A stretch of 64,000 nt of DNA from Rugalucina vietnamica. Its lineage: Eukaryota; Mollusca; Bivalvia; Lucinida; Lucinidae. The position numbers were made by a program, and so were the translations under genes. Below the pieces are notes generated by a model, which saw nothing but the letters and a program-made list of their open reading frames with translations, did no database searches and was not told where the DNA came from. Shown in pieces: positions 8,402-60,957 of the stretch (the first letter of the stretch is position 1; the number at the start of each line of letters is the position of its first letter). The DNA lies in assembly GCA_964017185.1 (NCBI GenBank), contig OZ024874.1:36494721-36558720 (forward strand), read 5' to 3'.

Positions 8402-8639
8402 ATTATTCATTGTCTTTTGAGCATTGAACGTTTCTCGCGATTTCAAGGGCTATTTCGAGTCGCTAGCTGTTATGGACAGTCGTAATTACAGATGCCTGAG
8501 TTTTTAAAGTGAGAACTGACGTAGAAACAAGTTGTTAAATCAGGAATTTACCTTCTAACTTGGAATAAATTCAGGAGGAAGTCGTTCTTCGAAAGTGAAA
8601 GTAGACAGGTGTAAGTGTTTAACACAATTTATTTAACAT

Positions 8640-39025: not shown

Positions 39026-39381
39026 TTTGTTTCTACAAAACACATGACGTCACGTCGCATTGACCAATGACGTCGCCCTAAACCCCAAACTCCAAGCCGC
39101 GGTGTTCCACTTCCGGACGAAAGTCCTCTCAGAAAACACCACTGCAGACACCAGTTGAAAAATGTTGAAAATTTCAACATTTTCAAAACTACCTTTGCTG
39201 GCGGTCTTTTTTTAGCATAATAAATTGTCATTATAATTAGCTTTTTGTTTGATTCTGGTTTGCATCCCGTATGTTGTTAAATAAGTAGATAATACGCAAA
39301 ATACCCGAGGACTATACTTTTTGGTAGCAGGACCAGGTCAGTAAGGAGGCGGATATTCGTTAAGGTCACGTGCTGTACAAA
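39026..39381. promoter_or_regulatory. Candidate bidirectional promoter of the RecQ-like gene
   Basis: Between the minus-strand ATG at 39025 and the helicase ATG at 39382 are TGACGTCA at about 39047, ACCAATGACGTC at about 39062, CACTTCCGGA (ETS-like) at about 39109, and GGTCACGTGC with a perfect E-box 12-17 bp before the helicase ATG. No TATA box is evident. This motif set fits a broad housekeeping-type promoter, but no expression data exist here. Confidence 0.45.
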
Positions 39382-42300
39382 ATGGCGTCTTCTCTGTCAG
39401 AATTACAAGTTACATTGAAACCAAAACAAAAAGAGTTTTTTGACATTCTGGGCAATGGCCGTGATATCATAGTAAATTTGCCCGTTGGATACGGGAAAAG
39501 CCTGTTGTACTTCTATATTCCCAACTTTTATTCTAGGGACAAAGAGAATCCCGTGGTGGTTTGTATCATTCATTGTCTCTTTTCGCCTTTACAGGTGCCT
39601 GTATTGATACAGGCCCCCGTTGTTGCATTCCCCCTGGTGTGGCATTGTCAGCTAGACGTTTCACCAGTAAACTATTCTGATTCTGACAAACTCGCTATTT
39701 GAAATCATAAATGTTTGTGATTCTTACGAAGGTTATGATCCAAGTACAGTCTTGGTCTTGTCTTTTTTTCCTACCAGTTTCGTGTTGATTTTAAACGATA
39801 TACATATATAGAAGAATGCATCAAATGCTTGTCATTTTCAAATTTTCTGCATTTCACTTTCAGATGCCAGCTGGTACAATGATCGATATATAATTCCCTG
39901 TGATGGAATAGTGAGATGATTGTGTAACTGTTAAACTGCATATCTAGGACTGTAGGACTTGGTTGTCATTACTTACCTGTCAGGTTATATGTTTGACTAA
40001 CCTCTGACAGATTTAGAGGGGGTCCACTTGAACCCCTCCTCTGGAGTCTGTCTAAAATTAGGCAAACAAACCTCCATTTTCTTCATTTGAACGTCCTCTT
40101 CTGAAATCCTGGAATGCCCCTATCTGTGTGTGATTTGTGTCGATCATGTCACTTGATTTTTAGTGTAGTTCTTGTCACTTGATTTTGGTGTAGGCTTGTA
40201 GTGCATGACGGATCAAATTGGGATGACAAGGGAGTATTTTAAGCTTTGATTTGAAGCAGCTTACTTTTAGATGCATTGTGCATGTCTTTTTTTCTTCTTT
40301 TTATGTGTGTTTGTTTTGGTATTGAACATATTTCAAAGTTTGTGATTTGTGACTGACAATTTTAGCAAATGATTAATGAATCATTCTTAATCCCACTTAT
40401 TTTGATGCTATTAAATGTGATTCACTTTTCCACTATAAAGACATAATAAGGCAGCATTTCTCTGTAGATTTGTTGCTCACATGCAGGGATTCTGTACAGA
40501 GTCTGGTGCTTCTTTAACATACAGTCCTTGTAGTACAAAGGTAGTACACCTTGGGTCCACAATGACTTGAGGAAATGTCAGTTCGAATCTGACCGGGACT
40601 TAAAACAATAGTAGCATCAACTCACTACACAGAAATCAAATATATGTTTGTATGATACAACTGATAAATACAGGATATTTGCTTTTTTGAGGTGAATACC
40701 AAATACATATATTTCATCAAGTGAGTTGAAAACATCAGAATTTTCATGAGTGCGCAGCACGAGCGAAAATTTTTTGTTTTCAACTCACGAGATGAAATAT
40801 ATTTGGTGTTCACCGAAAAAAAAAGCAAATTTTCTTTTTATTTTATACAATGCACGGGCATTTTCCAATTCACAAGGCAGGCGGTGAAAATGCAAAAACC
40901 AAAAATTTTTGAAAACACAAATAATTTTGGTACCACATTGTTCCTTACGTTCTAACTAAGAAAATGAATTTCCACACTTTATGTTTTCGTTCATAAATAA
41001 CAGAGTTATAGGCGTTTCAATTTCTAAAGTGAGACACATTTAATGACGTCAACTAAATGGAAACGTCAGAAGTAATCCAAAATCTACAGTGAAGATATAG
41101 GCTGATATCAATCACTAGTGACTTCTGATATCAGTGAGATTTGATATCAGTGAAATTTTATATCAATGAAAAATACCAATTTTATCAAGTTTTGATATAC
41201 ATTGGTTTTCACTGTAAAGTATAAAATAAACAGCAGTATATGAAACTCACCACTCCAGTTTTTCACATGTGAAACTATTACTCAGTAGAAGCATAATACA
41301 AACATACAGTTTGGACCAGTTACCACTAGTGGATGGCTTTGTAGCTCACCTGAGCCGAAGACTCACAGGTGAGCTTATAGGATAGGCAAGCACCCGGCGT
41401 CCGTCCGTCGTCCGTCCGTGGTCGTCGTCCACCATTTTCAAAGATCTTCTCCTCTGAAACCCCTTTGCCAATCAAAGACAAATTTTATATGAAGCATCTA
41501 TAGAAAGGGGGAACCAATGTGTATATAAATAATCCAGGTCACATGACCAAGATAGCTGCCATGCCCATATAATTATGGTAAAAACCCTTCAAAAATCTTC
41601 TTCTCCGGAACTGGTTGGCTGATTTCAACAAAACTTGGCATGAAGCGTCAATGACTCACTACAATGTATATATAAATCATGACCCTGTGATGACCTGACC
41701 TATTTTACGGCAAGGTCAACATAGGTCGCCTATGCATTTGAATGGGGGAAAACTGTAAAAATGTCATTTAAAGGGAAACACTTGCAGGAAATGAGCAACA
41801 GGACTGAATATTAATGATTGTGAAAAAAATGACACCAGGGGCTCATATGCCTCCACCCCGGGGCAATATACATGTATATTACCATAATATTCAAACATCT
41901 TCTTCTCTGAAACTGCTTGGTAAATCAAAGCCAAATTTTATATGAAACATCTATAGGAAGGAAGAATCAATGTATATAAAAATAATTCAGGTCACATGAC
42001 CATGATGGCCGCCATGCCCATATATGGTAAAAACCCTTCAAAAATCTTCTTCTCCGGAACCAATGGAACGATTTCAATGAAACTTGGCATGAAGTATTGA
42101 TGACCCAAGTACTACAATGTGTATATAAATCATGACCCTGTGATGACCTTGACCTATTTAACACCAAGGTCAACTTAGGTCGTCAATGGATTTGCATGGG
42201 GAAAACTTTTAAAATGTCATTTAAAGTGAATGTCTTGCAGAAAAATGCGTAGTAGGACTGAATATTAATGATTCTGGAAAAAAATGCTCCCCAGGAGCTC

Positions 42301-45300
42301 ATATGCCCCCATCCAGGGGCAGTATACATGTACATGTATATTTGCATAATATTCAAACATCTTCTTCTCTGAAACCACTTGGCCATCAAAGCCAAATTTC
42401 ATGTGAAGCATCTATAGGAAGGAGAACCAATGTGTATATAAATAATCCAGGTCACATGACCAAGATGGCCGCCATGCCCATATATGGTAAAAACCCTTCA
42501 AAATCTTCTCCAGAACCGGTGGACCGATTTCAAAGAAACTTGGCATGAAGCATCGATGGCTAAAGTACTACAATGTATATATAAATCATGACCCTATGGT
42601 GACCTTGACCTATTTTACGACAAGGTCAACGTAGGTCGCATATGCCTTTGAATGGGTAAAACTGTTAAAATGTCAGTTGAAGGAAAAGACTTGCAGGAAA
42701 TTGGCAAATGGACAGGATATTGATTATTATGAGAAAAAAATGGTCCCAGGGCTTCATCTGCCCCTAAACTGGGGCTATTTTCCATAATATTCAAACATGA
42801 TTATTGGTATATATACAACAAATCTCAGGTGAGCGGACAGGACCATTGGTCCTCTGGTTTAGTTTGTAATTTCAGTTTGATAAGTTACACCGGTCTGTTT
42901 GTACAGGCAGCAAGTTTAGCGTACAGTAAACAAACTTACACACCGACAACGAGTAAAATATCTTCTTCTCCAGAAACAATAGATCGATTCCAACAAACTT
43001 GGTATGTACCATCGGCGATTCTGGTCCATCATAATTTGTATAAATCATTACTTTTGGTTGACCTTGACCTGTTTTACGGTATTGTCAAATTTGGTCTCAT
43101 ATGCTTTTCAACGGGAAAAAATGTAAAAATTGGATTTTTCAGACAGTTTTGTCGACTGTGACCTGGGAGTTGGTATATTGAGTAATTGAATTTATGTGAG
43201 TTTTCAAGGTCGAGGTCATTACTTGATCTTGGCCAAAGGTCATTTGCATACTGTATTAACATTAAAGGTCATTTGCATACTGTATTAACGTTAAAACTTA
43301 ATTTTCTCAGACACCGCTTTGCCAATCAAACCCAAATTTTAATGGAGATGAGTAAAACAATGGATTTTGACAGTGACTGTGACAATCTAATTCTGAGTTA
43401 ATGAAGTATGGTATTCAATGCCAATTTCATTTTGGTCAAAGGTAATTGTTCAAAGACCAAATCTCAGGTATGCATTCTCAGGACCAATGGTCCTCGGGTT
43501 TGTTTACTCTATAGAGAAAAAAAGAAAGATTGTACAGTACCTCATGATTTAACTGCATGTATTGTAATGATCAGGCTAGAATTCAAGTTTTGTTTTTCAT
43601 GGTTTCTCAATATGCAGTCTTCATCTCTTTAAAACAGGTGGTCATTACTCCACTGTCTATCATACAGAAAGATCAGGTCAACAAAGCTGATACATATGGA
43701 ATAAGGGCGGCGAGAATGAGCCAAGATGGTAAGGTAGAGGATGGAAATGGAAATGTGTCACTGGCAGAACTAAAAGATGTAAGTGAAGCTGAAACTTATC
43801 ATAACATACATAGATATAATGCAGGTTTCAATATGACAGAACCATGTGAGGTTGGGAAAAATGTCAAGATATCAAATTATTATGAGGTTTAACTGTCATA
43901 TGTATGTATGTATTTAACCATAATAGTCAAATATTAAAGTTAATCCCAAATCTCAGTTGACCGTTTGCAGGACCATTGGTCCTCTGGTTTTTATTTTTCC
44001 ATTCTGGGAAGCACACACTAAGATGATATTTATACAGGGAACTTTGTCTGCTGCAAAGTCAAAGGCTAGGGAATGCTAACTGCCTCAATGAAGGGTCACA
44101 ATGTTAAAGTGAATATTTTTTTAATGTACAGGGACTTGTTCCAATACTCCTGTGCCATCCTGAGGGACTTCTAGCATCAGAGATTGGAAAACAGTTACTG
44201 AGGGATGAGCAATTCCAGTCCCGCGTGGTTTCTGTAGTGGTTGATGAATGTCATATTGTTGAAAAATGGTGAGTCAATTACCGGTAATGTTCTAAAGGTT
44301 TTGCATAATGTAATGCAATACAAGTCAGAATTTTGACAATGTATATTTCACAATACACTTCCAATTGCAAATGTGGTTCATAAATATTATTATATGAAGT
44401 ACATCTTGCCAGTTACATCACATGATCAAATGGCTAAAACATTATCTATGCTGTTCTTTTTGCTTGCAAATGTGATTGTCTCAGTAATTTTTCAACAAAC
44501 TATAGAAAGAAAATCTAGATTACATGTTTTTGTACATGAATATATACAGTAAGCTGGGTGAGCTGTTACATGTACTTACCTAAGGTTGCTATTCAGTTAC
44601 TTAAACTGACATAAATATATGAACATGTTCGTAATTGGCATTTAAATAGAATAACCGCTTTGTAAACATAAGTTTAAAGTTATATAAAATTACTGTTTTA
44701 AAGATGTGCTATCAAATATACTGAGCCAAACTTATAACACAACATCGGTTTGTTTTAATGTTATACTCCGGAACGTTATCAAATAAACTTTGTCTCTCTC
44801 AAATTAGATTGCCGGACGATCGACACATCTCACAGCATCTTGATTGAAACATTCTGTGTTTTGCGTCTAAAGAAATTAATAATTTTTCAGAGGTAGGGTC
44901 TCGGCAAAAAATGAAATGCATTGTGATGTTCCAGAACACGACATGTGACGTGTATTTGTACCTTAGAAATTAATGTCGGGTTTCAAGATTACCCCTGCTC
45001 CACATTAGACAATGAACAATTTTACTGTCAAAAGATCAATTATGCTCAATTTTGAGCAGAGTTGAAGACTCATTTTCGCCCCCAACCATTCAAGTTTACT
45101 CACATTTTAACATTTGTTACAGATGTTTCTGGCCCAACAATTGAATGCTATTGTGTTTTCTAACGCTGAATGACGGAATGAACATGTTACCACAAAGGTT
45201 TCATGAAAAACATTCGCAGTTAGAATTTTTCACCAATGCCATTTTCTATTGTGTTCAATGGAGTGCTCAGTATTAAATGTTCAATTTTCAATGATGCAAA

Positions 45301-46571
45301 CTTTGAATTAAAATTTTGGGTACAAATGGAAGGCATTTTGCAATCACTTCATCGAGCCTCACTGGACGATCCATAAAGAAGCAATTTGTGTTAAAAGTGA
45401 CTTCCAGAATCTCTTGGCAGGCGCATGCCACCCAAATAACCGTTTTGTCCAATCAGATTCGAGCTCAGTTACCCATGCTCTGAAAACCAAAATCTTTATA
45501 CCCAATTTATTCACTGGCGATTGCTGACCAGCATATGTCTGGTAGACCATCTTGCATCACATTAAAATGCGAAAAAAAATGCCATAACCGTGTTGCGTTA
45601 TAAGTTTGGCTCAGTATATTATCATGTTATGCCTACACCATAAAATTTATCAAATGTTCTTGAATGTTTGTTGTAGGGGTGCCAGCTTCAGATCCATTTT
45701 CAGCCAGGTAAAGACTCTCCCAGCCATATTACAGTGTCCCATGATTGCAATGAGTGGTACACTAACTGTTAAGCAGATGAAGACTCTACCGGCAGCTTTG
45801 GGGTTGATTGGTCCAGTTATAATTGAGGAAACCCCCGACAGACCAAATATTTTTCTTAAGAAATTCAAAAAGGAATCTAATTCAGATGTACTAAATGTAT
45901 ATGAGGGCATATACATGAGGGAGTGTGATAGACTTAGGGAGGAACCTAGCTCCTATCCAGTTACCCTTATGTTTATGCCACTCAAATACATTAGTCATGC
46001 TGCTGCATATCTAAAGCATTTGTTCAGACCAGAATTTCCAACCATCCCATATTCCGTCATTTTTTCAGGTCAGGAAAAAGAAATTGTAGATAGAACATTA
46101 GAAAGCCTACAAGAAAGGAATCCAAAGATAAGACTTATTCTTTCCACATCTGTTTCTGGTATGGGGTTTGATCCTCCCTGCATTGAAAGAGTTATTCATG
46201 CTTCTCCTCCCCGTAACATTTCCCAGTATCTGCAGGAGATTGGAAGAGCTGGTCGGAGAGGACAACCATCAGAGGCCATTCTTTACTATTCTAACTCTGA
46301 CATTTCTTTGTCTTTGCCAGATATGCAGCAAGACATCAGGGACTATTGCCAAACCGAGTCGTGTTTGCGCAAAGAGCTTCTTTCTAATTTTGGATTTCAG
46401 AAAGTTTCCATGACAGGATGCAGATGCTGTTGTTTTTGTAAAAGTTCCTGCTGTTGTGATGTTTGTTCTGTTTTAGTTCCAGAGGTTATTTTTGACCTTG
46501 AGGAGGAGATGACTGAGGATGGCTGTATATATGAGAAAATAGAAACCAGTATTGTTCCCATGGAGCAGTAG
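39382..46571 (+). CDS. RecQ-family ATP-dependent DNA helicase, four exons
   Basis: Exons 39382-39558, 43638-43778, 44132-44268 and 45677-46571 join in phase with GT-AG introns and give about 449 aa. The ATG follows a CACGTG E-box and sits in ACAAAATGG. Motifs in order: Walker A LPVGYGKS (33-40), motif Ia VVITPL (60-65), DECH box in VVVDECHIVEKW (144-147), motif III MSGTLT (177-182), motif V STSVSGMGFDPP, motif VI QEIGRAGRRG (338-347). A RecQ-type zinc region follows (residues 376-415), with CLRKELLSNFGF and an unusually Cys-dense CRCCCFCKSSCCCDVC. The family unwinds duplex DNA 3' to 5'. No RQC or HRDC domain follows, so this is a minimal core. No disabling change is seen. Intron 1 (4.1 kb) carries a foldback MITE and a Helitron-like element. 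The donor of exon 1 could also be three bases earlier. Confidence 0.85.
40673..41233 (+). mobile_element. ~560-bp foldback MITE, copy 1, in helicase intron 1
   Basis: Runs from GGATATTTGCTTTTTTGAGG to AGTATAAAATAAACAG and matches the reverse complement of 58197-58762 nearly throughout. The left ~200 bp is a long hairpin: GAGGTGAATACCAAATA.. and ATATTTGGTGTTCACCG flank an inner CGCAGCACGAGCG palindrome. The right part repeats short TGATATCAGTGA motifs. It has no coding capacity. Confidence 0.85.
41343..42860 (-). mobile_element. Helitron-like element with three ~460-bp core repeats
   Basis: Left end: AGCTCACCTGAGCC with ACAGGTGAGCT, then a CGTCCGTCCGTCGTCC stretch. Right end: CAGGACCATTGGTCCTCTGG, a short palindrome. 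Three core units are marked by ATATTCAAACAT or its equivalent, ATCCAGGTCACATGACCAAG, GGCCGCCATGCCCATATA, CTTCTTCTCCGGAAC and GACCTTGACCTATTT. It is inverted relative to the element ending at 1821. It lies in helicase intron 1 and encodes nothing recognisable. Confidence 0.7.
42880..43505 (-). mobile_element. Helitron-like fragment, second variant
   Basis: Contains ATCTTCTTCTCCAGAAACAA, GACCTTGACCTGTTTTACGG and ends CAGGACCAATGGTCCTCGGG. A truncated relative of the preceding element, directly before helicase exon 2. Confidence 0.6.
43915..43995 (-). mobile_element. Helitron-like terminal fragment
   Basis: CCAAATCTCAGTTGACCGTT and CAGGACCATTGGTCCTCTGG repeat the right end of the 41.3-kb element. 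It lies in helicase intron 2, 137 bp after the exon 2 donor. Confidence 0.6.
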
Positions 46572-46850
46572 TTTATTTTTTATGTACAAAGTATTTTTAG
46601 GAAAACTCATTTTCAGTTTCATCTAAGTATGAAATATGTCCCACTCAAATTGCCATGTATCGTTGGCATTTTAACATATCTAAGCATGAAATATGTCCCA
46701 CTCAAATTGCCATGTATTGTTGGCATTTTAACATCTATGAACAGAATCAATGACTACTAAGACTTAAGCTAGGTATTGATGCTGAGATTTATGCCTGAAT
46801 GTTCATTTGATGTTTTCTGTTTCAGTGCATATGACACAGGGGCAGAAAAA
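46572..46850. other. Helicase 3' flank with a short direct repeat
   Basis: After the stop at 46571 two ~60-bp direct repeats (46625-46677 and 46681-46735) share AAATATGTCCCACTCAAATT and TTGGCATTTTAACAT. No clear polyadenylation signal was assigned. Confidence 0.5.
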
Positions 46851-46852
46851 GA

Positions 46853-46935
46853 ATGTGGCCTGACCATGACTCGAACCCAGGGTCTCTCACTTACCCTGCC
46901 AGCTCTCTTCCACTAAGCTACCAAGCCACTTGGTA
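46853..46935 (-). mobile_element. tRNA-like sequence (SINE or tRNA pseudogene)
   Basis: The minus strand reads GGTAGCTTAGTGGAAGAG (box A) and CCTGGGTTCGAGTCAT (box B). A full cloverleaf is not convincing. Confidence 0.5.
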
Positions 46936-47065
46936 AAGCCTGTTACATTTTCTCCCTGCTTATTTAGATTTGTCCCCGTAACTGCTTAAAACCATGCTGG
47001 AACTGACAAAACACGTCACTCTACTGCTCGCAGCCGAAGCATGGACCCACACTGAGCCTCCAAAT

Positions 47066-47146
47066 GTCAGAATGTGGCCTGACCTGGACTCGAACTCAGG
47101 GTCTCTCACTTAATGCGCGAGCACTCTACTACTGAGCTACAGAGAC
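47066..47146 (-). mobile_element. tRNA-like sequence (SINE or tRNA pseudogene)
   Basis: The minus strand reads CTGTAGCTCAGTAGTAGAGT (box A) and CCTGAGTTCGAGTCCAGGTC (box B), flanked by AATGTGGCCTGACC as in the preceding copy. Most likely a duplicated SINE head. Confidence 0.5.
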
Positions 47147-47317
47147 TGATTACAAATAGATTATTGAACATTCATTCTCAGCTGAACTCAGTTGTTTGAT
47201 ATTGACTGCTCTTAGCTCCCCTGATTGTAATACTATTTGAAAGCATTTAATGTTGGATTGAAGCTGCATTTCTCCTAGCAACCATCTTCCATTCATGGTC
47301 CATATGTAGAAGCTTCC

Positions 47318-47395
47318 TTATTCTAATGGTTAGGCTACTCACCTTATAAATCAGGAATTGTGGATTTGATCCAGTGGGATTTCCCAGTGTTTTAT
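47318..47395 (+). mobile_element. Degenerate tRNA-like sequence
   Basis: CTTATTCTAATGGTTAGGCT (box A-like) and GTGGATTTGATCCAGTGGGA (box B-like, mutated). Third tRNA-like segment within 550 bp. Confidence 0.4.
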
Positions 47396-47698
47396 AATAG
47401 GTAACTGAAAAAGTTCATTTTCAGTATTCAAGAACAGGCTGCTGACAAAGACATATCCTGACAACTAATGACTTGACATGGTTGTAGGACAACGTTTTCA
47501 GACCAGATCATAAAACCATCATCACATATGTATCTGATCAAAACATTTCCTTAAATGGTCATAGCTATTATACAAGACCATAATAGAATATTCTCCTTTG
47601 TATATTTCAGACATTGAGTGGTGTTATGTATAATGTTGCCTTTGCTACCACCTTTGGCATTCAAACCATTTCTTATTATCCAATGCGAGTATATTAAT

Positions 47699-47935
47699 TG
47701 AGCCGCATCGTGAGAAAACCGGATTTTTGCCTTTGCGAAAACAAAGGCGCAGATCAGCTTCGCAGTAACTGCGAAGCTGATCAGCGCCTTTGTTTTCGCC
47801 ACTCGGATAGTACAATTCCTCTTCTTCTTAAATCCGAAATTTCAAGCTTCTAGCCTGCTTCTGTGACTGTACAGGCCGTTTGGTGTCAGACCTGGTCGGA
47901 AACCCCGAAGACCGGTTTTCTTGCGTCGCGGCTCA
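47699..47935 (+). mobile_element. TGAGCC MITE, copy B
   Basis: The best-preserved copy. Ends are TGAGCCGCATCGTGAGAAAA and TTCTTGCGTCGCGGCTCA. An internal perfect palindrome, CAGCTTCGCAGTAACTGCGA plus AGCTG, lies inside GCGCAGATCAG and CTGATCAGCGCC. AT flanks both ends. Confidence 0.9.
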
Positions 47936-48238
47936 ATTATGAATAGTCATATTAAACTTCACCAGGAAGCAAACTGGATAATTGTTGACTGGGATGTTAA
48001 ACTAATAAAATCAAGCCACATATTTAAGTGTATTTCCTTAGGTCTGATAATGTTTTTTACAGATATTTTGCAACTGTATAAACAAAATATTTTCTTGGCA
48101 CTATCGAGAATTTAGTTTGTCGCAAAATGTGCAGCAAAACTTTTCCCCAAATACGCATTATAAGAGACAATTTTTTAAACTTTAGAGGTACATAATCATT
48201 TGTTAAATTAGAAAATATAGATTACAATTTGTTTTAAA

Positions 48239-48474
48239 TGAGCCACCCCTTAAGAAAACCAACAACATGCATAGGGGAAAACAAAGTGGCAGATCAACAG
48301 TGCAGTAACTGCACACCTGATCAACGACTATGTTTTGGCAACACTGATAGTGCAATACTCTTCCAGATATTTCCAAAATTTCAAGCTTCTAGCCTGTTTC
48401 TGTGACTGTACAGGTCAGTGTGTCTAGGTCCTGGTTGGAAACACAAAATGATGGTTTTCTCATGTGAAGGCTCA
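48239..48474 (+). mobile_element. TGAGCC MITE, copy C
   Basis: Diverged copy 303 bp from copy B in the same orientation. The central palindrome is mutated (CAACAGTGCAGTAACTGCAC). Flanks AA and AT do not match. Confidence 0.85.
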
Positions 48475-48558
48475 ATTATGATTTAAATACTAAATTTAGT
48501 ATGGTCTCTGAATTAAAACACAACAGGCAGGATCAACTGTTTATTAAGCTATTATTAA

Positions 48559-49258
48559 AGACAGATGTACGTAATTGAAGGCGCTCAAAGGAACGTGCGT
48601 ATCTAAGGGTCGAAACGTCATTTTTACGCCGCATTCGTAACGTCAGTTTTCGCTCGAAACGTCATTTCTAGCGTCATTTTACGTTCGGAATACGAAACTA
48701 TATCCATACAATAAGGCAGAGGACTTCAGAAATGTAAAAAGGTTGATATTATTTTTTATTTTTGCTCAAATTATAGATTGTGGACATGTTATCCCGAAGA
48801 AAACAACATTTCCGCGACAGTTGGCAATATTGAATACTAAATAGTGTCGGAAATTTTGGCGCAAAATCGACGTCGCGCGTAAAATGTACTGAATTCAGCA
48901 ACGACTACCTCTCTTCGCACGCCTATAGCAGGAAAACGAATCCGGTAACTAAGGACTTTCTCGTTATCTATATGTAGTTCAGGAATTTCTCTAATACATA
49001 TCAGTTTTTTAAAAAATCCTACCGTGAATTTTTTAAATATATCAAGAAAATTAACAAAAAGGGGATCTAAAAATCGCATTTTACGTTGACGTCAATGTAT
49101 TTTCGCTCTCAAATTTGACGATTTTGAAGGCCGATATATCGAAAACAAGCTCGGAACGGTATCGATTTATTTTCATTTTCGTATGTAGGACATCAAAATA
49201 CACTCACATGCAAAAAATAAAAAAAATCTACCGTGAGGTCAATTACGTACATCTGGCT
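48559..49258. mobile_element. 700-bp TIR element with TTAA target duplication
   Basis: TIRs AGACAGATGTACGTAATTGA and its complement with one mismatch. TTAA flanks both ends (48555-48558 and 49259-49262). TTAA sites are used by piggyBac and Kolobok superfamilies. The interior has no transposase, only several GTCATTTTTACG/AACGTCA-type motifs. Confidence 0.85.
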
Positions 49259-49262
49259 TTAA

Positions 49263-49700
49263 ATACTTCATATACTCAAAGGATGATTTGCACCACTCAC
49301 AGTAGATTTTTATTACATTTTAGGTAGTTAATGTATAATTTAGTCTAACATATTCCAAACACATTTTTTGAACTTGCACAGCCTCAAAGGATTGAGAATT
49401 CAGTTGTGACTAACATCTAAATGTGTAAGGCCAAAATATATATATACTAAAGGAAACTTCCAATGCATACAGTAAACAATTTCTTATAAAAAAATAATAA
49501 CATGTACTTTTAATACATATTTGATTTTCCCTCTTTAAACATAATTATACATGTAGTATTGTTCACATGATCTGTGAAATTTCAGATCAAAATTTTGTGT
49601 ATTATGTAAACTTGAAAGGGTCAAAATCGAAAGTCACAAAAATGGAGTTTGTTTGTTTCAGTGTAGAAATTGAAATTTCATTTGTCATGCAAAATACATT

Positions 49701-49749
<49 letters not shown>

Positions 49750-50744
49750 CACACACACACAACATCAACAACAACAACAACAACAACAACACACAGGGAG
49801 AACGATGCAGGACATTTGCATGGTTTTGCTCATTTGCAACACGGATATCCACACTGTAACAAGATAAAGACTTTTATTGCATATGCACAGACAATTTGTA
49901 TGGCGTATGTTTTGTATTTAAAAAAAGAAAAAAAAAAAAACATCAACAACATACAATTAATTCCTTTTATCCTTAAATCCTTTCCTATATGCACATACCT
50001 TAAATGAAACACATGTAGAAATGTCAGTCTAGTGAAAATATCAATATCAGGGAAAATATCACTTTATTCATACTTGATGTTCATTGATTTCACTGCCAAA
50101 TATAAAATAACTGAAATTAATTGTTTCATGTTAGCCCAAAGATTGATTCAATGATGAATTACAGAGGAAATAACACTTCCAATAACACACTTTTACTTCC
50201 TTTTAAAGATATCAAGAAAATACACTTCTAATAACACACTTTTACTTCCTTTTAAAGCAATCAAGAAAATACCGTTTTAAGGTTTGTACATTTTGCTTTA
50301 GCAGGTCTTTAGGAATATATGGCATATCAGGCAAACAACAGAGATAAAACTTCATGTATGTTGATATGATATTATAGAAATTGAATTATATATATGTATA
50401 TATACTGAACAAAATGAGAAATGCAACAAGTTACAACTCACCACTTAAGATATATCTCAGTTAAGGGTATAACAAAAATATTTCAGGTTTTGTTTGGGTT
50501 GGTCCTGAGTCACTTTATATTCGGGTACAAAATGCAAAAGTCCAATTTTCATTCTGATTAAATTTGAATTGATTATTGTTTTCGAACAAAAATACTGCAT
50601 ACACAGAAAAATGAACGCTGCGCATACACACATTTTTAGATAATAAGATTCACGAAAAAAGTTTGAATTTGCACTACAAATGAGCCCATAAAAACATTAC
50701 GAAAACATGCCCGTGCAATATACAGAGATTTTTAAAGTTGTCAA
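49263..50744. other. No gene; CA/CAA microsatellite
   Basis: 49702-49793 is a (CA)n tract running into (CAA)n. Two ~60-bp direct repeats with AATAACACACTTTTACTTCC occur at about 50177-50275. ACTGAACAAAATGAGAAATG near 50404 may start an unrecognised transposon. Coding frames here consist of the microsatellite. Confidence 0.5.
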
Positions 50745-50990
50745 AAATGAAAATTTTTTGATATTTTTCTTATTTTTGCTCCAAAACATGGATTGTGGGT
50801 ACGCGTTAGAACCGCCTCGGCGAGGCGGTTCTAACGTGTATCCACAATCTATGTTTTGGAGTAAAAATAAGAAAAATAGGTATACCCCTGCATACTCCAG
50901 TTTTGCTATATAAAAGTGGGGGTTTGATGGGGTACACATTTCACAGACATGTTTTCCTGATGCCAGCCAAACCACTGTGTGTTTAATTGA
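50745..50990 (+). repeat. Near-perfect palindrome plus flank
   Basis: Arms 50764-50820 and 50821-50878 are complementary around GCCTCGGCGAGGC. The shared flank to about 50990 includes GTATACCCCTGC and ACATGTTTTCCTGATGCC. A decayed copy lies at 2255-2450. Similar peptides arise on both strands only because the DNA is palindromic. Confidence 0.8.
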
Positions 50991-51385
50991 AAGGGCAATA
51001 ATTCCAATCTCGTTTGTTTTAATTGTTTCATGTGTCAGTTTATTGACCAGTGGTTCATTGCAATCAATTCTGAATGGTGTTTTATAGCCAATTTTAATTG
51101 TACCATTGTTTTACAGTTTGCACATGAGTGTTGCATGTTTTTCCACTTTAAGCATGTCTTTAGATGGCATCGAATATCTCCTGCAATACTTTTCAGGAAT
51201 AAAATCAGTTTCATTCACTTAATGTCTGACATCTATTGCACAAGTACAAAATGACTCTGTATCTGAAAATGTCATAGTTTGTCCAGAATTTAGCAAAGCA
51301 TAATTGTTGCATTTAATGTTTTGCTCAATATAGAATATAATTAGATAGGTGATTGAATTATATTTGGAAAAAAAAAGAAGAAAAC

Positions 51386-52534
51386 AACAATGGTCCTTTA
51401 AACGCTCGCCTGATCTGGAAAGCTGTACTAGCATAAGAACAAAGAGCCAATGGGGGAGTTTGAAGGTTTTCCTATAGTCGACCCCCGGGGCGTGGCCAAA
51501 TTTGAACCCATGGGCATGATTGGTACAATTTTATGTAGAGAACCATTAGCCGTTGCAACATGCCAAATATCAAAGTTGTTGGCCATGTGCTTTCAGAGGA
51601 GATTTTTGAATTTTTTTCCCATTAAAACATATATGTTGCCATGGCAACCAGAGTTCCAGTCCGATCTGCCCAAAAACAACAAACAACATTTCCTTTTGCT
51701 CAGTAATGCTGTGTGTGTTTTGATCAATATCAGTCTACTGGCTTTTGAGATATTAATGTTTTCCTATAGTAAGTCTATCGACCCCTGGGTCATCGCCGAA
51801 TTTGACCCCAGAGGCATGAGTGGCACAATTTATGTAGAGGGCCATTAGCCGTTGCTACATACCAAATATCAAAGCTGTGGGCCCTGTGGTTTCTGAGATT
51901 TTTTTGATTTTTTTTCTCCATTAAAACGTATATGTTGCCATGGCATGATGGCAACCAGAGTTCCAGTTGCATCTCCTGAAAAACAATACGCAACCTTTCC
52001 TACTGCCCAGTGATGCTGTGTGTGTAATTTGATCAAGATTCGACTCCTGGCTTTGGAGATATTGATGTTTAAATGTTTTCCTATAGTATTTATTTGGAGA
52101 CTATCGACCCCCGGGGCATGGCCAAATTTGACTGGCACAATTTATAATGGGGACTACCTAACAGTGCTATATACAAAATATAGAAGCTCTGGGTCTTCTG
52201 GTTTCAGAGAAGAAGATTTTTTAAAGTTTTCCCATTGTAAGTCTATGGGAGATATCTGTTGCCATGAAAACCACAATTTTGATACAATCTGCTCCAAAAC
52301 CTAATGCAGTCAATCCCCCAACCGAATGATGGTTCACATTAAAGGGCTAAGTCTAAAAAAAAATTAAAATGTGAATTTACAGGGCAAAAAAAAGCTATTC
52401 GTGAATTTTGCCCTTTGACAAAGGTCCGCCCACTAGCTTCAGAAATATTCTTCTTCGACATTGTAAACGAATGACGACGCCGGACGGCTGCCTATCCTAT
52501 AAGCTCACCTGTGAGCCTTCAGCACAGGTGAGCT
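51386..52534 (+). mobile_element. Helitron-like element with four ~165-bp core repeats
   Basis: Opens with CAATGGTCCTTTAAACGCTC and ends with a hairpin AGCTCACCTGTGAGCC to GCACAGGTGAGCTAA after an ACGACGCCGGACGG stretch. Core units contain TCGACCCCCGGGGCGTGGCC, AATTTGACC, GGCACAATTTATG and TTAAAACATATATGTTGCC. The same family forms the array at 62340-64000. Frames in it are not genes. Confidence 0.75.
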
Positions 52535-52804
52535 AAAAACAACACCAAGGCAACATGTCTTCTTGTTGAACCAAACTGCTGATTATGGCTCACAAAACTA
52601 AATCACATTCTTTTACAGAACATTGAAATACACATGCATTGAACTGCTACAATAAGAGTCATGCATTTCGTTTTAGAAATTCTTATGCTGCACATACCAG
52701 TACAGTTCAACCTCATCATAAGACTTTTCAATACAAAGCAGTTTCCAATACAACACAGCCATGCCATGGCTCCCATAATTATATACATACATGTATTTGC
52801 TATA

Positions 52805-53000
52805 TGAGCTGTCGTGTAAGAAAACCAACAATTTAGTTTTCGACCAGTCCGACACAAACCCAGCTGTACACAGAAGCAGGTTAGAGGCTTGAAATTTAAT
52901 ATTTTAAGTAGAAAAGGAATTGTACTATCCTAGTAGCAAAAACAAAGACGCTGATCAGCTTTGCATGTGCAGATTGTTGTTTTTCTAGTGCAGTGGCTCA
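52805..53000 (-). mobile_element. TGAGCC MITE, copy D (internally deleted)
   Basis: Ends TGAGCTGTCGTGTAAGAAAA and TTTTCTAGTGCAGTGGCTCA, TA on both flanks. About 40 bp around the central palindrome are missing. Confidence 0.8.
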
Positions 53001-53411
53001 TATGATAATGTCTATTGTTAGTAACCTCATCATAACATGGTTTCAGTTATAACACTGTCAGTTTCAATGGACCCCAAAGTTAGTGTTATAATGAGGTTGA
53101 CCTGTATTTCCTAGAGGGTGAGCAGTGGTGATACAGGGGCCATTACACAACAAAAGTATCCTCATTTATGGGAATAAGACATTACATAGACACATAGGCA
53201 GTGTGGAATGAATGAAATTGCATTGTCAAGTTGGTGTCTAAACGAGACATGTATCACATTTATCACATTTTTACCCTTTGACAAAGATTTTTCAAAATTC
53301 TGTTCCCGGAGTCCTGTCACAACCACTCTCATGGCATAACTCATGGTACAGGTGCATGACAACATTGACATATGCATTAGAAAGTACAGAGTACAGCATT
53401 TTATAAAATAC

Positions 53412-53474
53412 TTTTTCTCTAGCCTGCTTTGTGTCTGAAACCCAGTAGACAAGTTTTGTCATGACATGACTCAA
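53412..53474 (+). mobile_element. Partial TGAGCC MITE
   Basis: CTCTAGCCTGCTTTGTGTCT, GAAACCCAGTAGACAAGTTT and CATGACATGACTCA match one end of the family. Confidence 0.5.
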
Positions 53475-53539
53475 GGTTACCTTAGTATTTTTTAGGTGTT
53501 AGAGATGGCTTTATTAACAAGGAACTAAATTATAATTGA

Positions 53540-53740
53540 ACAAGAGGACCAACGATCCTGATAACCAGAACTAGAGATATAGTCTTTGAAAAATGACTCG
53601 GTGACAAACAAATTTTAAACTTCAATGTGTAAATGACATTTGATTAATGTCAAGAAATGGCAAAAACCTTCAATAATCAAATAATTTCACCAACTCAGAT
53701 TGGCTAAGTGGTTTCTGAAAAAAGAAGATTTTTTTAAAAT
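53540..53740 (+). mobile_element. Helitron-like 5' fragment
   Basis: AAGAGGACCAACGATCCTGA resembles the GAGGACCAATGGTCCTG end at 61811. TGGTTTCTGAAAAAAGAAGA follows, as in the core repeats. Confidence 0.45.
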
Positions 53741-53763
53741 AAAGGATGATGGTGGATACCAAA

Positions 53764-53998
53764 TGAGCCGCAACATGACGAAACCGTTTTTTTTTTTCGA
53801 CCAAGTCTGACACAAATCGGCCTGTACAGTCATAGAAGCAGGCTAGAGGCTTGAAATTTTGGCTATAAGTTGAAGAGGAGTTGTACTATCCGAGTTGTGA
53901 ATACAAAGGTGCTGATCAGGTGTACAGTTACTGCACAGCTGATCTGCGCCTTTGATTTTTGCATATGCAAACATCCGGTTTTCTCATGATGCGGCTCA
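53764..53998 (-). mobile_element. TGAGCC MITE, copy E
   Basis: Ends TGAGCCGCAACATGACGAAA and TTTTCTCATGATGCGGCTCA, AA on both flanks. The central palindrome is GCTGATCAGGTGTACAGTTA with its partner. It ends 174 bp beyond the stop of the DUF6589-type gene. Confidence 0.85.
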
Positions 53999-54171
53999 AA
54001 TAATGCCTATATAATTATAAGCTTAAATAATGAGGCTGAGCATACAATGGTTGCGCTTCATTACACACACAGTACATGTATTGGCAGATTCCTTGTACTG
54101 GAAGAGCTGATAGAAGAGCTGATTAATTGATAAAAACACATTCTGTCTTTGTCTTAATGTATGTTTTGCTT

Positions 54172-57100
54172 TCAGTCTTCGTCTGATGAGCTACTGTCCT
54201 CATCATTATCATCATCTACAACTATAGCCTGGTCGTATGTCAGACGTCGTACCACCTGGTCAACCCTTTGCCTAAAGTCTAATAAGTCTATCCTTTCGAA
54301 AGGAGAGGCATGAATTGCTTTAAACCCTACACACTTCCGTCCTGCTTCTACTCTGAAAGGGCGCAGCTGCCTAACAGACCTTGCTAATATTTGTTCATCA
54401 TTGAAACTTGATGCAATCTTATGTTTGCTACTTATTGTCCTGGAGTTGATGAAACAGTCAAGACCGTCAGTTACAGCCTTGATTGTTTCAGCAGCTGCAG
54501 ATGTCCTGTCAATTGCACTGGTTGTTTTGTTGGCACCTAATTGTTTGATCAAGTTCTTAACTACTCTCACAGAGTTTTCTTGCATTAAGTCTGCTTCCAT
54601 GTTATTGTTGGCACCCCCACGGAGATTGACAAAAGAACCCTCAAGAACTCTCAATCTCTGTAAAGGTGACAGCAAAAACTCACATTTCAAAATATAATCA
54701 ATGTTTTCTACAAAGTATTTGCTCAAACGGCTGTGAGAGAAGAAAAGAGGTATGGCATTCATGCAATTAGGGATAACCCTAGTGATATCTCCTGCCTTAG
54801 CAGTATCATCCATTTCTAACACCTGTAAGAACCAATGACACAAGTTAGAGCAGTAATTGTATACTGAATCACTGGTAGAAGTAATGGACGGTCCCATGTA
54901 GGCATCAAAATCAAGATAATTAAAGTTTTCCAAAAATTTGGATACCAGTGAATACAGTATACAAGACTTCTCTTCTTGTGTCATCCATCTCCTGCCTCGA
55001 TCAAAATCATCGGTACTGATGATCTTGGTTGGGGCCGAGTCAGGAGATTCCATCCCAAGAAATTCCATTAGATGTTCTTTTAGCAAGACTCTTCCCAAGG
55101 TCATGAACAGGTCATGGTGTGCCTTAAACCTGGACTTGACTTTTCCATTCACAACACCTCTTTGCAGAATTGATTTTGCATGGTAGAGGGTTCCCGGCTG
55201 TCTGGCAGATGCAACATTAAACAATGTCTTGTAGGCTTTCTGAAAATACAATTTGAGCTGCATCATGAGAAAATCAACAATGTAGTTTCCGAAACAGGTC
55301 CGATACGAACCGAGCACAGAAGCAGGCTAGAAGCGGAAAATTTTAAAGTTAGAAAGAAGAGGAATTTAACTATCCGTGTAGTGAAAATAAAGGTGCTGAT
55401 GTGTTTTGCAGTTACTGCGAAGCTGATCTGTGCCTTTGTTTTCGCATATGCAAAATGTTGGATTTCTCATGATGTGGCTCATTTATTCTGTTTAAAGAAA
55501 ATATCGGCATTTAGGTTGCATTACAAGAAAATCTGTCCTTATGTTTTCTGACCAGCTCTAACTACATGTAAGACCGACACCTGGTTTGTTAAATAGTTTT
55601 ACATTTGATAACAAGGACAGCTATGGCTCAAGGTTTTGGATATAATGTATATTGTAAGAAGTATATGAAATTAAGTATTTGAGTATTAACCAAAAACAGA
55701 GATGACCGACAGCTGCGTATAATTATGTTTTGCAAAGCACAATTGTTTTTTTTGTGACAGTTCAGATTTTTTTTTTTTTTTTCAATGCAAAGATATTAAC
55801 AATAGTTTGATACATGTGCATATTGATTCATATTTTCTTATTTCCAGATAACTATGGATGGATATGGGATGGTTTGGATTGCAGCTTAATGTCCAATCAA
55901 CAATTTCCAGTTGTGTTCATAACCAACCATGTTTTTCAGGAGCAAAAAGTTTTAACAAGGATATAGGAATAGATTTTTTCCCTTTGGTTTGGATTGTAGC
56001 TTAGATTTAATGTTGATTAAGATGTTGTGTTTAAAAGAAAAAAAAATCATTTGAAAGATAATGTAATTGGTACTTAGCCTCAGGATTTGATGCATAATTT
56101 CTGATGTAATATCTGCTCTTCCCCATATTTTCATGATTAAGGAGCACCATATAAGTTCAACCCTATTATAAAGCTATCTTTGGGGTCCATGGAAACAGAC
56201 TGTACTGTTATAATTAAAACTGTGTTTTATCATATGATGTCGCTGTTTTCCAGTGGATAACGTCATGTCATAAAAATCGTATGACCACACGTGTAATAAC
56301 ACTTTTGCGGGAATACGTAACGTCATTGACGACGTCCGTAACAACAATGTAAATTTTCATTGAAAATATGTCCACTTCGAAGGCGATAAAATCCTATTTT
56401 AAAAGTCATATGATAAAACGAATCTTACACTCGTGGTCATTTCATATGAAATTTATTAAACTCGCCAAAGGGTCGTTTAATAACTTTCATATGAAATGAC
56501 CACTAGTGTAAGATCCTCTATATAATGAACTTATTTACAATGGGCATATAGCAAAATAATCATTTTTGGAGCCAATACATGGCCATGTTATATTGAAAAC
56601 CACACTATAATGAGGGGCGTTATTATGAGACTGACCTGTATATGATATTTGTGAAAAGTGATTCAATCATTGCACATGTCTTGAAGTTTTCAAACTCGCC
56701 TGCTTATCTTAAATGAGCATAAAGCCATTTTTGTTTTACATAATGTATCTTTTTTGTTGTTCTCCTTCAAATATTTTTATGACTATGGTAAGATGTGGTG
56801 CGAGAAAACTGGTCTTTTGGGTTTCCTACCAGGTCTGACACAAACCTACCTGTACAGTAACAGAAGATGACTAGAAACTTGAAATTTGGGATTTATTGTA
56901 CTATCTGTGAAGGGAAAACTGTGCTGTATCTGCATCTTTGTTTTCAAATATGCAAAATGCTGGTTTTCTTGTGAGGCTCATGATATTTATTTTAGCACTT
57001 TAGGTGCAATACATCTTGAAGTTATCTGCCTGATTTTAAATGAGTATTGAGCAATTGGTATTATGACATAATGTCACTTTTGTTGTAAGCTTGATGAATT

Positions 57101-60100
57101 GAGCCATGTCATGGGAAAATCAGATATTTGCATATATGCGAAAACAAAGTCACTGATCAGATGTGCAGTTTATGTCGAACCTGGTCGGAACCCCGAAGAC
57201 TGTTTTTCTCACGTCACGGCTCAATTAAGAAGGGGTCTATGAATAGTTGGAGGCCTAATTTTATAAACTCAAAGATGCAGTCATAGTTATAAACTGTATA
57301 TTCAACATGATTTTCTCTCTTTTTTACAAATGTATATTTGTGAATCATCATAAGGTCCAAAGGTGCATTTTGTCCTGTTGTGGTTCATTTAACAGATTTA
57401 AGAGCTTTTCATTGCAACAAATACATTTTTCAGCTATCAGGGAACCTAATCACTGGGTGCTTCCTTTGTCCCGATATAAAAAGGTTTTGTTTGATTTTTA
57501 CTATAGGTCCCGATAGGATTTGGTTTTGTTGGATTCAGGTACCAGATTTTTTTCTACAATAATTCCTAGAATTTGGTCAAAGATTTGATTTGATTCTAAT
57601 TTATGATGTCACTGAAAGAATTTCAAGTCATAATATAGTGCTTTGAATGCAATTTTAAAGTAAAATTTAATTTGATTCGTTAAAAGGTGATATAAATTAA
57701 GCAAGTTATATTATTGTCGACTCTGTTTTATGGAGATTTCCTGTGTTAAAGAAGTAGAACAAAATCCGTTACCAAAAAGTCAAACAAAACCTTTTTATAT
57801 CGGGACCAAGGAAGCACCCAGTGCTAATGTTTATGATATTTTACTTTTCATGAGATTTAGTAATAATCACCTTGATCACCAAGATCAGAGCATTTTCACA
57901 TAATCACTGTGAAATCCTTATAGGTTTAAATGGGTCCAGTGAAACAATAACATGTATCATTAATTCACAAGATGATTATTACTAAATCTGTAATATAATT
58001 TCCCTGCTTTCTGCTTCTTGCCTTTGTTATGATAGGTTGTGTATTGTTATTAATGTTCCTTTGTTTACATGTATGCTTTGTCGATGCTCACAATGAGAAT
58101 GAAAGATAATAAAAAAAAACTAGATTTATGAACTTTATTTCCTAGTTACTTATTTATAAATAGTTGGAGGCCTAATGATGCAGTCATATTTATAAACTGT
58201 TTATTTTATACTTTACAGTGAAATCCAATGTATATCAAAACTTGATAAAATTGGTATTTTCATTGATATGAAATTTCACTGATATCAAATCTCACTGATA
58301 TCAAAAGTCACTAGTGACTGATATCAGCCTATATCGTCACTGTAATGACATCAGATTTTTTGGATTACTTCTGACGTTTCCATTTACTTGACGTCATGAA
58401 ATGTGCCTCACTTCAGAAATTCAAACGCCTATAACTCCGTTATTTATGAAGAAAAACATAAAGTGTGGGTATTCATTTTCTTAGTTAGAACGTAAGGAAC
58501 AATGTGGTACCAAAATTATTTGTGTTTTCAAAAATTTTTGGTTTTTGCATTTATACCTCCTGCCTTGTGAATTGGAAAATGTCCGTGTATTGTATAAAAT
58601 AAAAAGAAAATTTGCTTTTTTTCGGTGAATACCAAATATATTTCATCTCGTGAGTTGAAAACATAATAATTTTCACTCGTGCTGCGCACTCGTGAAAATT
58701 ATAATGTTTTCAACTCACTCGATGAAATATATTTGGTATTCACCTCAAAAAAGCAAATATCCTCTATATATTCAACATGCTGCGGTGGTGTAATGGATAG
58801 CATATTCGCTTAGCAATCTATAGGTTGCGGGTTCGAAACCCGGCTGGTGCATATGCCTGCCATGTTGGTGACAAATGTTCACCCTGACGTAATAAGGCAA
58901 ACCGCCCTTAGGGTGTGCCCATAGGGGTGTGTGACCATTTTGCAAGAGACAATATAAAAAACACACACAGAGTAAGAATGGAACCCTTAATGTTATTAAA
59001 ATGCAAAATAGATCATGATGCTCAAAACCATCTGTGGCTTGCTATTTCTTTCTGGAGTAAAAATCAATAGGCTCCTGTCAGTTATACCAAGGTTATACAT
59101 ATATTAAATCTATTTCTTACTTCCAAAAGGTCCTGTTTGTTGTGCCACATTTCTACAACAATGGGGTTGAGATCTTCAAATCTTCTCTTTGGGTCAACTG
59201 CAATACTCCGAAGATGTTTTGCTTCTTGTAGTCGAACCCGAGTGAGCTGGTCTCCACCAACAACAGCTTTGAACTCTCTTAGAGTGTTGGCCCCTTCTCC
59301 TATAAAATAAATAGTCAGTTATCAAAAGATATTTGGTAGACATATTTTTGTCCGAATCATAAGCCTGTCTGCCTGATTGTGTAAATACATAACTATAGCA
59401 TAAGATGGTATGCAGAATCCACAACCCAAACTTTTGGATTTTATATTTTTTTAGTTATCTGATGTATCTAACCTCGTATAAATATTAGCTGAATTCAGTC
59501 AGCAAAAACACATTAACCACAGTTCTTCCATGTCTGTTTAACAATTTAATTCCTCTTTATCATTTTTATGTGTTTATTAGAACTCTATAACTTACTTTTA
59601 TATAATAAAGTTGAACCATCTTAATAATGATATGAAATTTACCAAAATGGTAAAAAATTACCATCCAACAGTTCAATCTTTGAGCGCGATACTAAATCTG
59701 TTAAAATTAAAATATTGTGTCAATAAAATTTATGCTGTTGGAAAGCTTATTAAATTGTGCACATTCTGCACTAATTTTCAGGGTAAACTTTTTAACATTA
59801 ATCGAAACCTATAAATCCAAGATAACTTTAACACCATTTTCATATTATTTGTTATTTTCTCTCGAATTATGAAACTTTTTGACTGCTCCACAACATGAAT
59901 ATAAAAGATCATTACCAAATGCTGTATGAAAAGCCCCATTCAGATATTCCTCATAGTGATCCATAATGTCACAACATTCTTCCAATTTGTTTTCATTTTT
60001 GTGCTGTATGGGCATGAAGAATCTAGTTGTTTTTTCACACATTTCCCTTTCATATGGAAACTTCATCTTGGGAACAACCTTCCTCAACCACTCAAAGGCT

Positions 60101-60957
60101 GGCAATTCTACTAGTAGTTTGCCTAAATAAAGGATATGATGAGATGAGTGGTTATTAAGATCTGAAAATGACAGTTGTACAAATTACTGTAATAACTTTA
60201 TATATATGGGCCATGTTGCGAGAAAACCAGATTTTTGTATGTGCAAAAGCAAAGACGCTGAAACTGCACAGCTGATCAGCTCTTTTGGTTCTGCTATACA
60301 GATAGTTATAGTAATTATCCCTCTTCTACTTAAATCAAAATTTTCAAGCTTCTAGCTCTTTTCTGAGCCTGTACAGCCTGGTTTGTGTCAGACCTGGTCG
60401 AAAACCTGAAGACCATTTTTCTCATGTCGCGGCTCAAACTGTATTTCATAATTTGCTATGAGATCTCAGCTAGCTTCTGACATTTAGCACAAAGGAAATA
60501 ATATTTTTAGTTATTGGCAGAATCATTACTAACTATTCTTTTGGCATTATTTGTACATGTAGTTCTGAAATTTTAACCTTCAAGCTAACTCCTGTGACTG
60601 CACATCCTGATTTGTAGCACATCTGGTCAAACAGTCATAGAAGACAGGTTTTGTGAGGATACAGCAAAATGCTTCACTAAGAAACAGTAAGAAACAGTAA
60701 TATATGCAACTCACTTTCCAGGATGATTTAATTTTTTCTGACTTGCTGTGACACTTACTCAGGTGAAAAATGTAAGCATTTCTCATTTTTGTCTTGTATT
60801 CACCATTGAGTAACAGGCTTTCTGGTGTAATGTTATCCAATACAAAGGCTGGTGCATCGTTACTCATGTCTGGCTTAGCAACACGTGAAAACACGAGGTT
60901 TGAGGCAAACATATGCAGATCTGAATTGGATTTACTTCTTCTTTCGTGTGCTGTCTT
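54172..60957 (-). CDS. DUF6589-type protein, four exons
   Basis: Exons on the minus strand: about 60957 (or ATG 60912)-60759, 60122-59916, 59299-59121 and 55239-54172. All junctions are GT-AG and in phase. From the ATG the product is about 535 aa. Features: AFVLDNITPE (D26), YIFHLSKLLVELPAF, then AVVGGDQLTRVRLQEAKHLR (D137), EMWHNKQDLLEKAYK, TLYHAKSILQRGV, FLLSPLQRLRVLEGSFVNLR, NNNMEADLMQENSV (about 393-405) and an acidic C-terminus rich in Asp, Glu and Ser. I recognise the DNxx / GDQLT / LSPxxxxxLxxxxFVNxxGGxxNN pattern as the DUF6589 family, common in basidiomycete fungi and several invertebrates, with no established function. More 5' exons may exist. It converges with the RecQ-like gene 7.6 kb away. 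The start is uncertain because the upstream acceptor (ATATATAAAG) is weak. Confidence 0.78.
55254..55481 (-). mobile_element. TGAGCC MITE, copy F, next to a splice acceptor
   Basis: Ends TGAGCTGCATCATGAGAAAA and TTTCTCATGATGTGGCTCA, TT on both flanks. It lies in the last intron of the DUF6589-type gene; only 14 bases separate it from the final exon (acceptor AG at 55241-55240). The branch site therefore probably lies within the MITE. Confidence 0.85.
55482..56221. other. Intron sequence, nothing recognised
   Basis: Within the last intron of the DUF6589-type gene. It has a T run at about 55767-55782 and a variant of the TTTAACGTCCCAGTCAACA motif near 55885. Confidence 0.4.
56222..56520. repeat. 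Palindromic element in the last intron
   Basis: ATCTTACACTCGTGGTCATT, TCATATGAAATTTATTAAAC and their complements form arms around CGCCAAAGGGTCG (56425-56513). TTTTATCATATGATG at 56225 is complementary to CATATGATAAAA near 56408. CRE-like GTCATTGACGACGT motifs lie inside. Confidence 0.65.
56791..56980 (-). mobile_element. TGAGCC MITE, copy G (decayed)
   Basis: AGATGTGGTGCGAGAAAACT to TGGTTTTCTTGTGAGGCTCA, lacking much of the central palindrome. Confidence 0.7.
57100..57223 (+). mobile_element. TGAGCC MITE, copy H (internal deletion)
   Basis: TGAGCCATGTCATGGGAAAA to TTCTCACGTCACGGCTCA; about 110 bp of the interior are missing. AT on both flanks. Confidence 0.75.
57243..57310 (+). repeat. Local direct duplicate, arm 1 (empty site)
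   Basis: ATAGTTGGAGGCCTAAT, GATGCAGTCATAGTTATAAA, CTGTATATTCAACATG recur at 58161-58200 and 58767-58778, where they are split by the foldback MITE. This copy shows the uninterrupted sequence. Confidence 0.7.
57451..57823. mobile_element. Short TIR element, 373 bp, with 5-bp duplication
   Basis: TIRs of about 44 bp (57451-57494 and 57780-57823) begin CACTGGGTGCTTCCTTTGTC and are nearly perfect complements. CTAAT flanks both ends (57446-57450 and 57824-57828). No coding capacity. It lies in the last intron of the DUF6589-type gene. Confidence 0.85.
58197..58762 (-). mobile_element. ~560-bp foldback MITE, copy 2
   Basis: Inverted relative to the copy at 40673-41233 and nearly full length. It lies in an intron of the DUF6589-type gene and splits a duplicated sequence whose unsplit version is at 57243-57310. 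Confidence 0.85.
58781..58976 (+). mobile_element. tRNA-derived SINE
   Basis: TGCGGTGGTGTAATGGATAG (box A), GGTTGCGGGTTCGAAACCCG (box B and T-arm), then a body with AATAAGGCAAACCGCCCTTA, ending in A-rich CACACACAG. The first 73 bases come close to a cloverleaf, but the acceptor stem pairs poorly, so I prefer a SINE head over a functional tRNA gene. Confidence 0.65.
60207..60436 (+). mobile_element. TGAGCC MITE, copy I
   Basis: TGGGCCATGTTGCGAGAAAA to TTTCTCATGTCGCGGCTCA with GTGTCAGACCTGGTCGAAAA inside. In the first visible intron of the DUF6589-type gene. Confidence 0.8.
60569..60662 (+). mobile_element. Partial TGAGCC MITE
   Basis: GAAATTTTAACCTTCAAGCT, CCTGTGACTGCACATCCTGA and a GGTTTTGTGAGGAT end resemble one half of the family. 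Same intron as copy I. Confidence 0.5.

Follow-up and report, generated by a model that had tools for sequence, protein, structure and literature searches.

AcademH DNA transposons reportedly come from animals and fungi, to go by the title of a paper by Kojima (2020, Mob DNA 11:15). According to the passage on these groups in PMC10045372, AcademH elements have target duplications of 9 or 10 bp and AcademX elements duplications of 3 or 4 bp, a difference tied to the encoded helicase or nuclease, respectively. KolobokH elements are also DNA transposons carrying a RecQ helicase, but they have TTAA duplications and other ends and have been reported from fungi only (part of PMC9587614). An excerpt of PMC10799480 names AcademH, KolobokH or Helitron elements as the source of DEAD and Helicase_C domains found in gene fusions of fungi, a passage of PMC10294476 reports an amplification of Academ in a bivalve lineage, PMC12730594 contributes nothing further on Academ, and the AcademH paper appears in the reference lists of PMC8290104 and PMC12210899. 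We analysed a stretch of 64,000 nucleotides from the bivalve Rugalucina vietnamica (contig OZ024874.1, positions 36,494,721 to 36,558,720; hereafter the window), in which a gene for a RecQ-type helicase faces a gene of the DUF6589 family. Both genes are very probably the cargo of a single AcademH-type DNA transposon, with the DUF6589 protein as its Asp-Asp-Glu (DDE) transposase and the helicase as an accessory protein. The system, proposed as a candidate undescribed one in the original prediction made from the window sequence, is probably not of a new kind, since a DNA transposon that encodes a helicase and makes duplications of 9 or 10 bp corresponds to AcademH as characterized in the cited part of PMC10045372.

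The pairing of the two genes was assessed in one genome of 1.09 Gb. DUF6589 yielded 73 matches, merged into 64 loci, and two helicase queries yielded 57 and 56 matches, merged into 55 loci, such counts being lower bounds. A DUF6589 locus was found within 20 kb of 31 of the 55 helicase loci (expected 0.132; maximum of 3 pairs in 2000 random placements), and 33 of the 64 DUF6589 loci had a helicase within the same distance. Thirty of the 31 pairs were convergent. The pairs are not independent, as several loci are near-identical, and by score they correspond to about 20 lineages, a figure that is estimated and not computed. The pairing is real and mobile. The two-gene unit ends at discrete termini with target duplications, and it occurs in several families, as near-identical copies dispersed in the genome and as short derivatives. 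The proposal that the two genes form a selfish module is borne out in this genome, in which they pair far more often than by chance and the units have common outer boundaries, inverted repeats and duplicated target sites. Animals possess cellular RecQ genes, and 24 of the 55 helicase loci lacked a DUF6589 locus within 20 kb, both of which would suit two neighbouring ordinary host genes duplicated with their segment; however, the 31 paired loci, 30 of them convergent, the transposon-type termini with their duplications, and short derivatives consisting of the ends only all speak against such an origin. We rejected it on the basis of the termini, the duplications and the copy pattern, and we give it almost no credence. 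The unpaired loci probably include host RecQ genes and relics.

For three families, A (that of the window), B and D, both ends were located. These were inverted, the terminal inverted repeats ranging from about 8 bp, exact, in family A to imperfect repeats of at least 70 bp in family D. Such repeats are general to cut-and-paste DNA transposons. Eleven insertions were read at both ends: seven had exact target duplications of 9-10 bp and one an exact duplication of 8 bp, the window element matched at 8/9 positions, another at 7/9, and one had none. Family B was represented by copies on C4, C10, C13 and C16, those on C4 and C13 without a left end. Two family B elements with both ends (10,227 and 9,548 bp) were bounded by TAGACTGG...CCAGTCTA and contained both genes, and the duplications of this family measured 9 bp on C10 and 8 bp on C16. 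A pattern derived from its ends, with no more than one mismatch, occurred at 15 other sites in the genome, and the reversed control at none. Family D copies (C1, C13 and C15) also contained both genes, between imperfect inverted ends starting with CAATCTG, with exact duplications of 9 bp (C1) and 10 bp (C13). The helicase of families B and D was recognized by similarity to that of family A and by eye. The C15 element (C15:29635361-29652499) was 17,139 bp long, measured from the inner of two left ends; part of its DUF6589 gene was duplicated (element positions 5816-7285 and 8102-8821).

The ends and duplications also bear on KolobokH-like elements, in which a RecQ helicase would accompany a Kolobok transposase. 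The portion of PMC9587614 on Kolobok describes RecQ in KolobokH and in a red-alga Kolobok, in the latter on the complementary strand, but gives TTAA duplications and 5'-RR...YY-3' ends for Kolobok. The elements studied here had neither feature, with duplications of 8-10 bp, no TTAA rule, and CA...TG or TA...TA ends, and a Kolobok origin is therefore scarcely conceivable.

The window element, a member of family A, extends over 51,028 bp (C6:36533806-36584833), that is, from window position 39086 to position 90113, 26 kb past the end of the window. The mobile unit is therefore longer than the original prediction, which ended at 60957. The element has the ends CAAACTCC...GGAGTTTG and the flanks CCTAAACCC/CCAAAACCC. 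Its features in the window are as follows.

39077..39085, no strand: left half of the 9-bp target-site duplication, matching the right half, after C6:36584833, at 8/9 positions
39086..39182, plus strand: 97-bp left terminus of the element, common to other insertions, with outer flanks diverging from the same base
39382..39558, plus strand: helicase exon 1, with GYGKS motif; the exact donor is one of several possible sites
43638..43778, plus strand: helicase exon 2
44132..44268, plus strand: helicase exon 3, with DECH motif
45677..46571, plus strand: helicase exon 4, encoding Helicase_C and a C-terminal stretch rich in Cys
48555..49258, no strand: insertion of about 704 bp in the window copy only, absent from the C2 copy, resembling a miniature inverted-repeat transposable element, with inverted ends seen by eye
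54172..55239, minus strand: last DUF6589 exon, PF20231 positions 156-410, with the candidate catalytic E in a DLMxE context
59121..59299, minus strand: DUF6589 exon with GGDxLT motif (candidate second D)
59916..60122, minus strand: internal DUF6589 exon
60759..60982, minus strand: DUF6589 exon with GDN motif (candidate first D), its start out of frame in the window copy
62289..64000, no strand: tandem repeats at the point where the C2 copy ceases to match the window; the element itself runs on to C6:36584833

A near-identical copy of the window element was found on C2, the match beginning exactly at 39086 and covering 39086-62288. This limited match prompted us to consider a segmental duplication of the window region, which was rejected because position 39086 also opens other insertions and the right end was located at C6:36584833. 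Position 62288 was likewise rejected as a right boundary: it lies inside the tandem repeats, and exon-like frames of the C2 copy continue past it. The left end at 39086 was recovered in six insertions with differing flanks; four loci besides the C2 copy, chosen from the 40 listed matches, were read, and each had the same first base and unrelated flanks. With up to three mismatches, the left-end sequence occurred 393 times, versus 32 for the control. The right end was common to the C2 copy, C6 (26 kb past the window) and other loci. The C2 copy contained two insertions of its own, of about 490 bp each, and the C6 stretch from the tandem repeats to the next part shared with C2 (up to 36584193) exceeded its C2 counterpart by about 20 kb. 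The window copy is an insertion with both ends, 51 kb in length and swollen at least partly by nested repeats, and it is probably no longer autonomous. Just to the left of the element, there was a fragment of an RVT_1 reverse transcriptase (37428-38294, minus strand, 2.8e-19).

Family A ends were also found around much shorter units. For the pairing of left and right ends, we used 36 of the 40 left-end matches (all but those of the window, of C2 and of two old relatives) and 24 of the 43 right-end matches (all but C2, C6 and 17 matching only the outer flank of C2), and obtained 12 pairs in the proper orientation, of which 11 measured 7.6-14.5 kb and the remaining one 102 bp. The 11 longer elements (C17:14932938-14941516, C5:39426931-39441449, C1:23919009-23931799 and eight others) contained no match from the genome-wide DUF6589 search or the two-query helicase search. 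They are large non-autonomous derivatives, three of which were read over about 1.8 kb each. Exact 9-bp duplications flanked three large derivatives, of 8.6 kb (C17), 14.5 kb (C5) and 12.8 kb (C1), as well as one of 107 bp (C13:45347621) that comprises nothing but the two family A ends.

The window helicase gene is intact, as originally predicted: its four exons on the plus strand encode 449 amino acids with zero internal stops, and the first exon has three in-frame donor options, one or two residues apart. Pfam detected DEAD (7.6e-17) and Helicase_C (5.6e-13) domains, both over the cut-off, and RecQ was the top relative in a PDB search (8.7e-30), the nearest solved relatives being RecQ proteins. 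We take the GYGKS and DECH sequences to be helicase motifs. The protein shares the helicase core with the cellular RecQ helicases (bacterial RecQ, WRN, BLM, RecQ1 and RecQ5), from which it differs in comprising the 449-amino acid minimal core only and in its location inside a transposon.

The DUF6589 gene is convergent to the helicase gene, on the minus strand, and matched PF20231 with an E-value of 5.4e-24 (85.1 bits for the window exon and 129.2 bits for the family B protein, versus a curated cut-off of 27 bits). Its four exons in the window are open from 60957 down to 54172 (550 amino acids), in agreement with the original prediction, which however also took the gene to be intact. It is neither intact nor complete inside the window, because the start of the GDN exon is frame-shifted relative to C2 and the 5' part lies outside. 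Position 60957 is neither a splice acceptor nor an exon edge; an acceptor immediately precedes 60982. The intervening 25 bases, with the exon start and the conserved GDN, were out of frame with the remainder in the window, whereas the C2 copy keeps the frame. Two further exon-like frames of the C2 copy, both absent from the window, lay rightward of the segment that the two copies share. The middle upstream frame displayed weak similarity to family B (E = 3e-4). The N-terminal frame was selected visually because of a CxxC...CxxC pattern and had no significant similarity to family B (E = 1.9); its DNA was also present at C6:36584193-36584832, outside the window.

Some or all of the GDN, GDxL(T/S) and DxxxE motifs were present in families A, B and D and at two further loci, L001 and L008. 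The putative D-D-E residues would correspond to family B positions 412, 568 and 875. Of the two activities proposed in the original prediction, nuclease and recombinase, these candidate motifs make recombinase, or transposase, the best reading of the DUF6589 protein, and an AcademH transposase is the best assignment because the element matches AcademH in its RecQ helicase and its 9-10 bp duplications. The fit to AcademH is good on three features (helicase, duplications of 9 or 10 bp and terminal inverted repeats), transposase homology being outside this comparison. The helicase and the duplication length are those described in part of PMC10045372, and the likeness is one of described features and not of protein sequence; the elements found here reach 17, 31 and 51 kb. 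In the mechanism that we infer, the DUF6589 protein would bind the inverted termini, excise the element and join it to target cuts staggered by about 9 bp, which would yield the 9-10 bp duplications, and the RecQ-type helicase would unwind the ends or intermediates. Membership of Academ would hold at the protein level as well. AcademX belongs to the same superfamily if the elements are AcademH, but it encodes a nuclease and has 3 or 4 bp duplications (same part of PMC10045372), versus a helicase and 8-10 bp here. Membership of AcademX was rejected: an XPG_I search of the genome gave three matches, none within 20 kb of DUF6589, although a divergent nuclease could be missed by this search, and the duplications are of 8-10 bp.

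A separate, unnamed superfamily, in which a RecQ helicase is combined with a DUF6589 transposase unrelated to Academ and the 9-bp duplications are a coincidence, would be consistent with the size of the elements (9.5-51 kb, against a mean of 5,565 bp for curated bivalve Academ in the relevant section of PMC10294476). It would also be consistent with the literature searched for DUF6589 and PF20231, in which nothing relevant was found. However, the published hallmark of AcademH is a helicase combined with duplications of 9 or 10 bp (PMC10045372, in the part cited), and we consider this separate origin improbable. A little less probable still is a version of it in which DUF6589 constitutes its own, non-Academ transposase superfamily, lastingly associated tail-to-tail with a RecQ helicase that itself sets the 9-10 bp stagger. 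A search for DUF6589 in viral contigs gave 172 pattern matches, none of which was confirmed.

The coding state of the copies was compared in families A and B. The noncoding DNA of the four family B copies diverged by 0.30-1.08%, the helicase exons by 0.06-0.32% and the candidate transposase exons by 0.10-0.47%, and in all six pairs both genes were less diverged than the noncoding DNA. Both genes were open in the C16 and C10 copies; the C4 copy had a frame-breaking gap in the transposase gene, and in the C13 copy the transposase gene was open and the helicase gene lacked 306 bases. Silent and replacement changes in the transposase gene numbered 2-9 and 1-5 across the six pairs, which is too few. 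The two family A copies differed by 0.31% in noncoding DNA, 0.22% in the helicase and 0.36% in the transposase gene.

Several observations weigh against an AcademH-type transposon with a DUF6589 transposase. In addition to the 24 unpaired helicase loci, 31 of the 64 DUF6589 loci had no detected helicase within 20 kb, and one pair was divergent. The C2 copy of family A had no target duplication, the C15 element of family D had a duplication matching at only 7/9 positions and a partly doubled left end, and in two older relatives of the window helicase, on C2, the match to its upstream DNA began only at base 46 of the terminus. The match to AcademH concerns described features, not protein sequence, which also favours a separate superfamily. 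A PDB profile search with DUF6589 returned no meaningful match (two at E-values of 0.5 and 1.4), and the model of a DUF6589 exon, folded from a single sequence without an alignment, had a mean predicted local distance difference test (pLDDT) score of 38.5, too low to be usable. This poor model is no argument against a DDE fold, because a helicase exon folded in the same way scored 34.1 despite its known fold family. The family B helicase displayed no silent excess (0-2 silent versus 1-2 replacement changes), with few changes overall, and the divergence of the family A transposase exons was not below that of noncoding DNA, the changes being too few to show selection.

The only possibly new claim is that Pfam DUF6589 may be the AcademH transposase. 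If this is true, a family to which no role had been attributed would acquire a function, that of transposase partner of a RecQ helicase, and the annotation of such pairs as host RecQ genes would be misleading. Family B, with four copies, two of which have both genes open, would be a practical first test bed for the role of a transposon-borne RecQ helicase. Two minor observations were made at other loci. Four tandem, near-identical helicase fragments with no DUF6589 match nearby, about 6.5 kb apart and with two stops each, were found at C6:11686209-11706464. The DUF6589 protein of L001 (1447-2946; C2:22882506) contained two Cys/His-rich, PHD-finger-like inserts inside the domain, as identified by eye.

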